Source of the DNA: an uncultured Paracoccaceae bacterium
Lineage (GTDB): Bacteria; Pseudomonadota; Alphaproteobacteria; Rhodobacterales; Rhodobacteraceae
Assembly: GCA_937895435.1 (NCBI GenBank)
Contig: CALAXT010000056.1
Span: forward strand, 1-64,000
Direction of reading: 5' to 3'
Length of the DNA: 64,000 bases
The notes beneath the pieces are model-generated. The model was not told the origin of the DNA. It searched no databases and worked only from the letters and a program-made list of their open reading frames with translations. A program made the translations under genes and the position numbers. Below, in pieces: positions 19,752-25,196 of this stretch (its first letter is position 1; every line of letters starts with the position of its first letter).

Positions 19752-20963
19752 ATGCAAAAAGCCGCCCCACAATTTTCCCAACCCCTGCGCCAAATTGCGC
19801 TGATGCTGACTGTGGTCGGGCTTGCCGGTCTGGGTGGTTGGGTGGCTTTTCCCCGTGTGTCGCAGGTATTTTGGGAAAACCCTTATCTGAACACCGGTAT
19901 TTTTGCGGTGTTCTTGATTGGTGTCATCACCTGCTTTTCACAAGTCTTGACCCTGATCGGTTCGGTCAATTGGATCGAAGATTTTGTATCGCACCGTCCC
20001 GGCCATGAAAATGTCAAACCCACGCGTCTATTGGCGCCTTTGGCTGCGTTGCTGCGCGAACGCGGCAACCGGGTGCAGATATCTTCCACGTCATCGCGCT
20101 CAATCCTTGATTCGGTTGACAGCCGGATGGATGAGGGCCGCGACATCACGCGCTATCTGGTGAACTTGCTGATTTTTCTGGGCCTGTTGGGCACATTCTT
20201 TGGCTTGGCCACAACCGTGCCCGCTGTGGTGGAAACCATCCGATCGCTTGTCCCACAAGAGGGCGAGAGCGGTATGGTGGTGTTTGACCGGCTGATGGGG
20301 GGGCTTGAATCCCAGCTGGGTGGGATGGGCATGGCGTTTTCCTCATCGCTGTTGGGGTTGTCCGGATCCCTGATCGTGGGGTTGCTTGAGCTTTTCACCG
20401 GGCACGGCCAAAACCGCTTTTACCGCGAACTGGAAGAATGGTTATCCACCATTACCCGTGTCGGCCTGAGTGCGGGCGAGCATGAAGGTGCCGATGGCGG
20501 TGCCGCGGCCCATATCATTGACAATATGGCAGCCCAGATGGAATCGCTGCAAAATATCTTTGTCCAAGCCGAGGTCAGCCGCGCTGTGGTTGATGAACGG
20601 CTGGGCACGCTGGCAGATGCCGTCAACACATTGGCCAAACGCATTGAGGCTGAGTCTGAGGCCCGCGGCGATGCCGCTGTTGTCTTGATTGAACTGGCCA
20701 AGGGCCAAAATCGCATGCTGGATGTGCTGGAAAATCGAATGGGGGCAGAGGGGGGCAGTGGCGGCGGCATTGATGCCGAAAGCCGGATGCGCCTCCGGTC
20801 AATCGACGTTCAACTGCTGAAAATTCTTGAAGAGCTGGCCGCTGGCCGGTCAGAAAGCATGGCAGATCTGCGCGGCGATCTTGCTGAAATGACAGGTGCG
20901 ATCCGCAGCATGGCGCGGGCCTCGCGGTTAAATCCGCCCGCCGGCACCCCGCGGGCTGAGTGA
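19752..20963 (+). CDS. MotA/TolQ/ExbB-family stator subunit
   Basis: A 403-residue membrane protein with four predicted helices: 15-31, 47-70, 136-157 and 194-214. The third and fourth carry the TolQ/ExbB-like core (LIFLGLLGTFFGLATTVPAVV; GMGMAFSSSLLGLSGSLIVG). The remaining 190 residues form a cytoplasmic helical tail rich in A, E, R and L. Such proteins form the pentameric ring of proton-driven motors. Its stop overlaps the start of the OmpA-domain partner (TGATG), so a complex of the two is very likely. It is neither TolQ (no tolR/A/B here) nor MotA. The ribosome binding site is weak. Confidence 0.82.
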   Translation: MQKAAPQFSQPLRQIALMLTVVGLAGLGGWVAFPRVSQVFWENPYLNTGIFAVFLIGVITCFSQVLTLIGSVNWIEDFVSHRPGHENVKPTRLLAPLAALLRERGNRVQISSTSSRSILDSVDSRMDEGRDITRYLVNLLIFLGLLGTFFGLATTVPAVVETIRSLVPQEGESGMVVFDRLMGGLESQLGGMGMAFSSSLLGLSGSLIVGLLELFTGHGQNRFYRELEEWLSTITRVGLSAGEHEGADGGAAAHIIDNMAAQMESLQNIFVQAEVSRAVVDERLGTLADAVNTLAKRIEAESEARGDAAVVLIELAKGQNRMLDVLENRMGAEGGSGGGIDAESRMRLRSIDVQLLKILEELAAGRSESMADLRGDLAEMTGAIRSMARASRLNPPAGTPRAE

Positions 20964-22681
20964 TGGGACGCGCGCGCCGCGGATCCGGCCGCGAGCCTTT
21001 GTCGATATGGCCAGGGTTTGTTGACGCTTTCACAACGCTTTTGCTGTTGTTGATGTTTGTTTTGACAATTTTTCTTCTGGCGCAATTTGTGTTGCGCGAC
21101 ACAATCACCAGCCAAGAAACCAAGATGAGCGGTCTGGCCGATCAGGTCAGCGCGCTGGCCGACGCTTTGGGGCTGGAACGGCGCGAAACAGCGCGGCTGT
21201 CAGGCGAATTAGATTCAGCCCAAGACACCGCGCGCAAACAGGACCAGCTGATCGCCACACTGGGCGCGCAAGTGTCAGCCCAATCCACAGAACTTGACGC
21301 AGCCGGTGCCGAGATCACCCGATTTGAGGCCCAGGTGGCCGGGCTTTTGGCACAGCGCACAACGCTGAACACCGCTTTGAATGATCGCCAAACCCAAATT
21401 GAAGCCCTGACATCGACCCAAGAAGCGTTAAACTTGGCGCTTGCCCAAAGCCGCTCAGAGATCGATGCGCAAACCGAAGCCGCCCGGCTTGATGCTGCGC
21501 GCCGCGCCGCCTTGGAAGCATTGATCGAAGATCTCAAGCGCGATGCGGGTGCAAAAGAAACCGCCCTTGTTGAACTGCAATCCAGCCTAAAGGCGGTGCG
21601 TGACGACAAATTGGCCGAGGCCGCCGCCGCTGCCCTTTTGCGCGAAAAGCTGCAAAACGCCAATTCAGAACTGACCGCGATGACCTTGATGCTGGAAGAC
21701 AAGCGCAAAGCGGCCGAAGACACGCTAACCCTGTTGGCCGCAGCCCAAGCAGCCCGCGCCGACCTGCAAGCCCAGGTTGATGCCAACCAAGCCACAGCCT
21801 TGACGGAATCTGAACGTCAGGCCGCCCTGCTGTCCGTTGCCAACCGCCGCCTGCAAGACCAACAGGCCAAATCTGCCGAGGCAGAACGGCAGCTGGCCCT
21901 GCTTAACGAACAGACTGCCGCGTTGCGCCAGCAATTGGGCCAATTGCAAACCTTGTTAGATATTTCAGCTGAAAATGACGCGCAGGCACAGGTGCAGATC
22001 ACGGCACTTGGCAACCAGCTAAATCAGGCGTTGGCCAGCACCGCATCCGAGCAACGCAAACGCGCTGATCTGGAAGAGGCCGAGCGCAAACGCTTAGAAC
22101 AAGTCGCATCGCTGCAAGAAAAGCTGAACGTCGCCCTGAAAATTGCCGCTGATGAACAACGCCAACGCGCTGATCTGGAAGAGGCCGAGCGTAAACGTCT
22201 TGAGGCCGAGGCCAAAAAGCTGGAACGCTATAGATCAGACTTTTTTGGGACATTGCGCGATCTGATGGCCGAACTGGAGGGGGTTCGAGTGGTGGGTGAC
22301 AGGTTTGTCTTTTCATCCGAGGTGCTGTTTGAACCCGGCCAAACCGATCTGACCGCTGCCGGACAAGAACAGATTAAAGACGTCTTTGCGCGCTTGCGCC
22401 CGGTTCTTGACCGCATTCCCCCACAGATTGATTGGGTGATCCGGGTCGACGGCCACACTGATAACATTCCACTTTTGGGCACTGGTGCTTTTGTCAACAA
22501 CTGGCAGCTCAGCCAAGCACGCGCCCTGTCAGTGGTGTTGTTCATGATTGATCGGTTGGGCTTTCCCGCCGAACGCGCTGCGGCCACAGGCTTTGGTGAG
22601 TACCACCCCGTGGCCCCGGAAAACACACCCGAAGCCCGCGCCCAAAATCGCCGCATTGAGCTTAAGCTGACAGAACGCTAA
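20963..22681 (+). CDS. MotB-like protein: TM helix with Asp, long coiled coil, OmpA peptidoglycan-binding domain
   Basis: 572 residues. One helix at 20-44 (PGFVDAFTTLLLLLMFVLTI) has D21 at its cytoplasmic end, matching the proton-carrying aspartate of MotB/ExbD/TolR. Residues about 50-420 are almost uninterrupted coiled coil rich in A, L, E, Q and R, and include a 17-residue segment repeated with a 35-residue period. The C-terminal 140 residues are an OmpA-like domain (FEPGQTDLTAAGQEQ, VDGHTDNIPL, NWQLSQARALSV, NRRIELKL). Thus a proton-driven stator is held to peptidoglycan by a long spacer. Function is unknown. Translational coupling to the ExbB-like gene is clear. Confidence 0.82.
   Translation: MGRARRGSGREPLSIWPGFVDAFTTLLLLLMFVLTIFLLAQFVLRDTITSQETKMSGLADQVSALADALGLERRETARLSGELDSAQDTARKQDQLIATLGAQVSAQSTELDAAGAEITRFEAQVAGLLAQRTTLNTALNDRQTQIEALTSTQEALNLALAQSRSEIDAQTEAARLDAARRAALEALIEDLKRDAGAKETALVELQSSLKAVRDDKLAEAAAAALLREKLQNANSELTAMTLMLEDKRKAAEDTLTLLAAAQAARADLQAQVDANQATALTESERQAALLSVANRRLQDQQAKSAEAERQLALLNEQTAALRQQLGQLQTLLDISAENDAQAQVQITALGNQLNQALASTASEQRKRADLEEAERKRLEQVASLQEKLNVALKIAADEQRQRADLEEAERKRLEAEAKKLERYRSDFFGTLRDLMAELEGVRVVGDRFVFSSEVLFEPGQTDLTAAGQEQIKDVFARLRPVLDRIPPQIDWVIRVDGHTDNIPLLGTGAFVNNWQLSQARALSVVLFMIDRLGFPAERAAATGFGEYHPVAPENTPEARAQNRRIELKLTER
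22049..22204 (+). repeat. Two-copy 51-bp repeat in the coiled-coil coding region
   Basis: Bases 22049-22099 and 22154-22204 encode the same 17 residues (EQR(K/Q)RADLEEAERKRLE) with only a few silent differences and one K/Q change. The period is 105 bp, 35 residues, which equals five heptads, so a duplication keeps the coiled-coil register. Confidence 0.85.
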
Positions 22682-24689: not shown

Positions 24690-25196
24690 TTAGTTATACC
24701 GCAGCACAGCGTCATAGGCTTTTGCGCGGTAGACTAACGCACAGCAGAGCAACAAAGACATCATCGCGATGCGCACCATAAAAGCTTTTAATGCAAATTC
24801 TGCATAAAAGTTGCCATGCACGACGGTGTTCACCAGATCATTGAGCAAGAAAACAGATACAAACCCCAACGCAACAACCAATAATTTCATGATGCAGCGA
24901 TTTGTCGCAAACGCAAAAAGTACAGCTGATGAAAGCGAGACAATGGCAAGACCACGCAATTGAACAGACGCCTGCATCTCAGAGATACGGTTGAAATCAG
25001 AAATTCCGATCCACTGCAACAATTCAACCGGAAAGAAAAATGCGGTCGCGCTAACGATAAAAGCAACGCTTGCAACGATATAAATGGCCACTTTGAACCA
25101 AGGCGGTAAAAAAGCATGGGCAAATGCCCGCAGTTCGCGCTTGTCTTTGATAATTGCAGGCTCTGCAAACATATCAATTCTGCTTTGGTGGGTCAT
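24690..25196 (-). CDS. Unknown four-helix membrane protein in an A+T-rich patch
   Basis: 168 residues with four hydrophobic helices at about 33-56, 75-97, 102-122 and 135-158, a charged N-terminus (IIKDKRELRAFAHAF) and a short positive end. I do not recognise the family. GGAGAAG lies six bases before the ATG. The gene and its 228-base upstream region are visibly richer in A+T than their neighbours, which may mean recent acquisition. An operator-like inverted repeat lies about 160 bases upstream (25353-25379). It converges on the ABC gene with an 11-base gap and no hairpin. Confidence 0.7.
   Translation of the reverse strand: MTHQSRIDMFAEPAIIKDKRELRAFAHAFLPPWFKVAIYIVASVAFIVSATAFFFPVELLQWIGISDFNRISEMQASVQLRGLAIVSLSSAVLFAFATNRCIMKLLVVALGFVSVFLLNDLVNTVVHGNFYAEFALKAFMVRIAMMSLLLCCALVYRAKAYDAVLRYN

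Follow-up and report, generated by a model that had tools for sequence, protein, structure and literature searches.

A widespread alphaproteobacterial gene pair for a probable ion-driven motor with a coiled-coil shaft that varies mostly by whole heptads

The window analyzed here is a 64,000-nucleotide stretch of DNA (positions 1 to 64,000 of the forward strand of contig CALAXT010000056.1, assembly GCA_937895435.1) from an uncultured Paracoccaceae bacterium of the family Rhodobacteraceae. It contains two overlapping genes, A and B, which probably encode an ion-driven motor whose continuous coiled-coil shaft reaches the cell wall and which serves the force-dependent upkeep of the envelope. Across homologs of B, the length of this shaft changes mostly in steps of seven residues. 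These steps, a third gene (X) found at many loci and the wide occurrence of the pair in Alphaproteobacteria are new relative to the initial annotation of this DNA, which had singled out the pair as a possible proton-driven stator.

RESULTS

Predicted architecture of the A/B pair

Gene A (19752–20963, forward strand) starts with the ATG at 19752 and codes for the putative motor (channel) subunit of 403 amino acids (aa). Gene B (20963–22681, forward strand) codes for the putative axle subunit of 572 aa; the ATG at 20963 was taken as its start, and the GTG at 20960 was set aside. The stop codon of A and the start codon of B share one base within TGATG (20961–20965, forward strand). Both reading frames and their overlap are real, as first described.

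The A protein has four hydrophobic segments (residues 11–36, 43–75, 131–161, and 191–218), which coincide with the helices of its AlphaFold2 model, where the block means of the predicted local distance difference test (pLDDT) are 85–98 for residues 11–230. The loop after the second segment is charged. The fourth segment is followed by a predicted cytoplasmic helical tail (residues 241–403; 20472–20960, forward strand), which is shortened in some relatives. Alignment of 34 A proteins gave two motifs, GLLGTFFGL with T148 in the third transmembrane (TM) helix (20181–20207, forward strand) and GMGMAFSSSLLGLSGS in the fourth (20322–20369, forward strand). G144, L145, G147, T148, F149, G151, and L152 in TM3 and G191, F196, S199, G202, L203, and S206 in TM4 are identical in all 34 proteins.

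The N-terminus of B is rich in arginine and precedes a single hydrophobic segment (residues 12–50), in which D21 lies within WPGFVDAF. This residue (codon 21023–21025, forward strand) is the putative ion-carrying aspartate of the only TM helix. The shaft follows at residues ~46–425 (21098–22237, forward strand), a coiled coil of ~380 residues that had initially been put at ~370. Here the periodicity of L, I, V, M, and F at 3.5 residues reaches z = 11.9 relative to shuffled sequences, and B is free of proline from residue 18 to 457. The protein ends in an OmpA-like domain with GHTD and LSQARA (22325–22651, forward strand; Pfam E = 2.5e-14), the presumed peptidoglycan binder. W16, P17, V20, and D21 are invariant in 37 of 37 aligned B proteins, as are the OmpA residues H498, D500, R520, and NRRIE. 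A longer homolog outside this alignment, from locus L110, has WTG in place of WPG and retains the aspartate. From the charge pattern, the N-terminus of B is predicted to be cytoplasmic and the coil and the OmpA domain periplasmic. The B model contains a helix at residues 17–358 and again at 370–436, followed by an OmpA fold. Because its mean pLDDT is 76.5 and its predicted template modeling score 0.38, the relative placing of these parts means little. The predicted fold and topology of both proteins, including the single helix with its aspartate, the periplasmic coil beyond chance, and the OmpA domain, agree with the initial annotation.

The length of the shaft follows a heptad rule

Shaft length was measured as the distance from D21 to a conserved SxFF before the OmpA domain and includes ~25 membrane residues. 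Loci in which the two anchor motifs did not lie in one frame were dropped from the counts (3 of 61 discovery loci and 5 of 92 hold-out loci, the latter including L310, with a two-base stretch). Because the anchor pattern demands the VD of the aspartate motif, these length sets are uninformative on the conservation of D21.

In the 145 B proteins, the shaft was 140 to 2197 residues long (an ~15-fold range), with 406 residues in the window. Upon division by seven, the remainders 0 to 6 occurred 22, 4, 3, 86, 5, 1, and 24 times. The hypothesis was set on the discovery loci, where remainder 3 was found in 31 of 58. In the hold-out loci, it was found in 55 of 87, where 12 were expected (binomial p = 1.7e-25), and among the hold-out lengths unseen in the discovery loci in 14 of 35 (p = 1.7e-4). 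When each distinct length was counted, the chi-square test modulo 7 gave p = 3e-12 and, for the hold-out, p = 4e-15. A third set, mostly of named Rhodobacteraceae records, had a complete B in 74 of 80 loci and remainder 3 in 35 of these 74; this set is not independent, because at least three of its contigs (L353, L369, and L375) equal contigs of the earlier sets in length and are apparently shared with them. The moduli 3, 4, 5, 6, 8, 9, 10, 11, and 13 were flat for shaft length. Two control regions were flat modulo 7, namely the tail of A (n = 57) and the linker of X (n = 18, with low power). Coiled coils tolerate stutters of three or four residues, and the remainders 0 and 6 are shifts of this size.

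The periodicity at 3.5 residues exceeded z = 3 in all 145 homologous coils. A length held in heptads implies that the heptad pattern has to run through the coil without a break, which speaks against a disordered linker. A hairpin shaft was rejected, since no 14-residue step was seen (22 vs 17 distinct lengths), and this argues against paired arms. By itself, the length rule is no proof that torque passes along the coil. The coil could instead be a long passive tether that merely keeps an ion channel near the wall and bears neither torque nor tension. The rods often exceed the length needed, and their length varies even within the records of one genus (430, 440, 472, and 605 residues in Roseovarius), as such a tether would allow. 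A passive linker, however, need not be a proline-free, heptad-true helix, whereas 139 of the 145 coils lack proline, and we regard a mere tether as quite improbable.

In places, the changes in shaft length look recent. The shaft in the window contains a partial in-frame duplication (22049–22197, forward strand), with 44-nt copies at 22049–22092 and 22154–22197 that are spaced by 105 nt, which equals 35 residues or five heptads. At L110 (9406–16497), a B of 2363 residues has the longest coil, with nearly seven in-frame tandem repeats of 339 bp that match each other by 92–96%. These repeats look like a recent expansion; their unit of 113 residues does not divide evenly into heptads.

The pair is a widespread chromosomal locus

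Matches to A came from 48 of 61 genomes, comprising the genome of the window, 34 of 36 others of its family, and 13 of 24 genomes from other families of the class. Within the sampled family, this amounts to 35 of 37 genomes. In a 150-genome sample of the phylum, three strong A matches lay outside the class (G389, G444, and G455; E ≤ 4e-97), and the other matches outside the class had E values of 1e-18 or weaker. No phage record matched the pair at E = 1e-3. The plasmid collection gave one match, a 3.7-Mb replicon of Sinorhizobium meliloti labeled pSymB (CP090106.1). The S. meliloti orthologs, LZK74_31000/30995, bear the annotations MotA/TolQ/ExbB proton channel family protein and 'peptidoglycan -binding protein'. 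This replicon carries purE, a thiamine phosphate synthase gene, and rpmE, and may be a mislabeled chromosome. The pair is a chromosomal locus that is widespread in Alphaproteobacteria and is not a defense island.

The count for B at E = 1e-3 was 255 of 289, a number that includes other OmpA proteins; by a hand count of best E values ≤ 1e-30, ~196 of 289 remained. Among 60 loci retrieved through a match to A or B, 55 contain both genes, and A adjoins B there; in L123 and L135, there was no B with the anchor motifs. The hold-out loci were found through B alone and all belong to other families. In 74 of these 75 loci, A precedes B in the same orientation, within ~120 nt in 73 cases and at ~0.5 kb in one.

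With FliG as the sole flagellar marker, 38 of the 48 A-positive genomes had a match and 10 had none (completeness is 90% or more in 7 of these 10); the 13 A-negative genomes comprised 9 with a match and 4 without. The pair thus shows neither the linkage to flagellar genes nor the dependence on them that would be expected of a flagellar stator. Neither a coil predicted to be cytoplasmic nor a tie of the pair to Tol or Mot, the two outcomes that had initially been set against a stator of a new type, was found.

Genomic neighborhood and gene X

Among the scanned neighbors of the pair in the window, there is no flagellar, Tol, or Ton gene, as had been noted at first. The open reading frames (ORFs) of the 61 loci form clusters of homologs for ChaC (25), an ABC transporter (26), inositol monophosphatase (27), EF-P (24), and ClpA (16). 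In the family of the window, the pair tends to adjoin genes for DUF2125 and ChaC, with a ClpA gene often farther out, and the window itself has an ABC transporter after the pair. Loci of other families usually run thiE or GAPDH, EF-P, inositol monophosphatase, X, A, and B, often with an ABC transporter on the opposite strand after B. In the window, a 168-aa ORF (24690–25196, reverse strand) that appears hydrophobic by eye and has no Pfam match separates the ABC transporter from the inositol monophosphatase gene.

The third gene, X, occurs outside the family of the window. Its product appears to be secreted, with a signal peptide (judged by eye) and a stretch rich in proline and alanine. It ends in an OmpA-like domain that has another sequence, e.g., AYA, in place of GHTD and largely keeps RRLSLxRAL. 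An example is the proline-rich X at L131 (5373–6455), whose OmpA-like domain lacks GHTD. Near the N-terminus, beyond the likely signal peptide, several X proteins have in common a short motif resembling VIIGG...VxVDLxALD, which may be a binding peptide. In the hold-out, X precedes A at 61 of 74 loci, and in 3 of the other 13 the contig ends too early to show it. The X profile reached at least 85 bits in 12 of the 24 other-family genomes of the class. The family of the window yielded no X, as the best match in its 37 genomes scored 45.1 bits; that of the genome of the window itself (44.2 bits) is a lipoprotein bearing GHTD.

The median coil length was 460 residues in the family of the window and 198 in the others (Mann–Whitney p = 5e-9; 24 vs 32 loci, omitting L090, L110, L123, and L135, where the motif is absent). 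This association of long coils with the absence of X comes down to one clade, and in other families the loci without X did not have longer coils (median 191 vs 214). The lengths of the X linker and the shaft were not correlated (Spearman 0.12, n = 18). A correlation between the lengths of the A tail and the coil was seen in other families (0.59, n = 30) and was absent from the family of the window (0.08, n = 24), with relatedness not removed.

These surroundings also bear on a role as a Zorya-like anti-phage motor. In a PADLOC scan, A matched ZorA1 (E = 4e-10) and B matched ZorB3 (E = 2e-18). However, none of eight neighbors matched a ZorC, ZorD, or ZorE model; the sole neighbor matches were those of the ABC transporter to the mad3, mad8, and AriA models, which were taken as shared ATPase sequence. 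Furthermore, housekeeping neighbors recur across families, phage records gave no match, and the single plasmid-collection match is the Sinorhizobium replicon. The A profile scores one clear ZorA at just 6.7 bits per domain, and ~160 residues follow the core of A compared to several hundred in the ZorA of L180. Membership in Zorya was dropped on the grounds of the missing zorC, zorD, and zorE and the low ZorA score, and an anti-phage motor of this type appears extremely improbable. No further ZorA was found in the plasmid collection. Very large MotA/ZorA-like frames of 839–847 aa (open frame up to 1633 aa), with weak scores to the ZorA1 profile, were observed in L190, L192, and L198 from other Pseudomonadota.

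A is a divergent member of the MotA/TolQ/ExbB superfamily

The Pfam model MotA_ExbB scores A at E = 0.098, under its cut-off, and A is therefore a divergent member of the superfamily. The helical core of TolQ/ExbB/MotA and the TM3 and TM4 motifs are present, so that the four-helix core described initially holds with this restriction. Foldseek with the A model gave a probability of 1.00 to TolQ, ExbB, and ZorA, with a best E value of 4.5e-3 and none reaching 0.001. In an hhalign comparison of the A profile with four sets, ZorA came first (probability 72, E = 4e-6; this set held a single sequence), compared to a probability of 22 for the TolQ/ExbB set and ~0 for the MotA and PomA-like proteins of the same genome. 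By this one profile comparison, ZorA may be the nearest relative, with the caveat that the A profile hardly scores this ZorA, and no ZorC, ZorD, or ZorE lies nearby. The initial likening to ZorAB was fair.

A MotA_ExbB search of the genome of the window lists three other proteins and not A. From their sequences, these are probably TolQ, the flagellar MotA, and a PomA-like protein before an OmpA protein. TolQ and Pal are encoded on contig C23, and a flagellar MotB is also present. Since the TolQ, MotA, and PomA-like proteins are separate, A/B is a fourth system of this kind in one genome. A further PomAB-like pair was noticed at G000:C40:28058-29986 (L002 and L007), with a 256-aa A frame and an OmpA-type B frame of 488 aa with a low-complexity linker. 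FliG matches on G000:C18 and G000:C27 suggest two flagellar systems in this 2.66-Mb genome.

B has the single TM helix with a conserved aspartate that is expected of a B subunit in this superfamily. It scores 697.8 bits with NCBIfam NF006542 (cut-off 388) and also passes the cut-off of NF006543. The entries NF006542–NF006546 (PRK09039) are named 'peptidoglycan -binding protein'. Being already in NCBIfam, the B family is catalogued but apparently unstudied.

DISCUSSION

By analogy with the MotA/TolQ/ExbB superfamily, A and B would form a proton-driven motor, probably with five A subunits around two B subunits. Ions would pass D21 of B and the region of T148 of A, turning the ring of A against the B dimer. 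This dimer would extend from the membrane as a single, parallel, unbroken coiled coil, ~57 nm long here if straight, which would run into the periplasm and end in OmpA domains that grip peptidoglycan. The coil would thereby act as a shaft that bears torque or tension between the energized inner membrane and the wall, with force-dependent envelope upkeep as its likely job. In many other families, the secreted X may belong to the system and interact with it.

The motor could also deliver its output in the cytoplasm. MotB is held by the wall, and if B is held likewise, the moving part is the ring of A. The statement in the initial annotation that the envelope has to be the site of the output therefore does not follow. 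B would then be a fixed anchor and its coil a mere tether, and the A ring would turn its bundle of cytoplasmic tails, which would act on a cytoplasmic partner, as proposed for ZorA. B indeed retains the MotB-like OmpA residues, many A proteins carry the predicted helical tail of ~160 residues with conserved positions, and ZorA is the closest characterized relative in the hhalign comparison described above. In L102, L104, L105, L106, L128, and L136, however, the A frames are 285–312 aa long and the tail is short or nearly gone, while the coil and the OmpA domain of B are kept; moreover, the length of the tail follows no heptad rule. Because the coil and the OmpA domain are constant and the tail is short in several relatives, output on the outside, through the shaft, is favored, and output through the tail of A is unlikely.

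Several observations weigh against a wall-directed shaft motor as described here. Relatedness inflates the p-values of the length tests, as the discovery and hold-out loci share families and some genera; the tests on distinct and unseen lengths lessen the effect of shared ancestry and do not remove it. Any coiled coil under the need to stay folded should accept mainly heptad-true insertions and deletions, and end-to-end phase coupling is therefore not proved by them. The periplasm is usually 20–30 nm deep. Rods longer than 30 nm were predicted for 98 of the 145 coils, which excludes a straight radial shaft as the general arrangement; these rods must tilt, run along the wall, or writhe, and the shortest, of ~17 nm, could fit the gap between inner membrane and wall. 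VIA-align matched the A model (~residues 31–250) to TolQ, ExbB, or ZorA in all of rows 1–22, with Z = 9.8–11.9, but helical-bundle Z values below ~13 can reflect a common arrangement, and a designed bundle followed in row 23 with Z = 9.6. As to linkage, just 13 of the 24 sampled other-family genomes carry A. In L116, L117, and L276, B was present and no A was detected, and in G041 the two genes are on different contigs, with A alone in L108. Three of the 12 genomes with X (G038, G040, and G057) gave no A match, which weakens a strict X-A-B unit, and the annotation of the S. meliloti locus shows no X in the interval from inositol monophosphatase to A.

No study of this A/B pair was found in the literature, for which journals and supplementary tables were incompletely covered, so that a study or essentiality data may exist. 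The Rgs polar-growth proteins of Sinorhizobium were rejected as candidates for A and B, as the text of their paper contains none of the terms 'MotA', 'ExbB', and 'OmpA'. The available parts of the CenKR and DalA papers describe no such pair. In the available part of PMC12505986, the B subunits of non-flagellar A/B complexes are said to have no discernible OmpA homology, a picture that the present pair does not fit.

If the proposed shaft motor is true, much of the class, whose members include symbionts, pathogens, and abundant marine lineages, possesses an energized link between the inner membrane and the wall that is unstudied. The rule of length modulo 7 would be a cheap and strong handle on force transmission in such motors. 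A shaft that varies 15-fold, mostly in heptad register, can be shortened or extended at will, which makes torque versus tension testable. More tentatively, X-A-B might be a further energized envelope motor of Alphaproteobacteria beside Tol and Ton. Its rope-like drive shaft, from ~17 to more than 300 nm long and changed mostly by whole heptads or stutters, would be twisted against the wall and reach beyond the depth of the periplasm, and the Zorya motor would be related to it and co-opted for defense.

Among the known families and systems, B falls within NCBIfam NF006542–NF006546, whose name is silent on the partner and the mechanism. The pair resembles TolQR and ExbBD in the fold of the A core and in a GxxGT-like motif in TM3. 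It differs from them in the extra N-terminal TM helix of A and in the OmpA domain and long coil of B. None of TolR, TolA, TonB, TolB, and Pal is encoded among the scanned neighbors of the pair, in contrast to a Tol-Pal cluster. With MotAB and PomAB, the pair shares the four TM helices of A and the OmpA domain of B, which finds its best matches in the PDB in MotB, MotS, and PomB, whereas its scanned neighbors include no flagellar genes and it is present in the 10 genomes without FliG. The likeness to ZorAB, as described in the available part of PMC11890865, lies in an A with a cytoplasmic helical tail, in a B with a conserved aspartate and a peptidoglycan-binding domain, and in the best score of the four hhalign sets. 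Unlike ZorAB, the pair occurs without nearby ZorC, ZorD, or ZorE as a widespread chromosomal locus, and it combines a short A tail with a long, predicted periplasmic coil in B and, in many families, with X as a putative partner.

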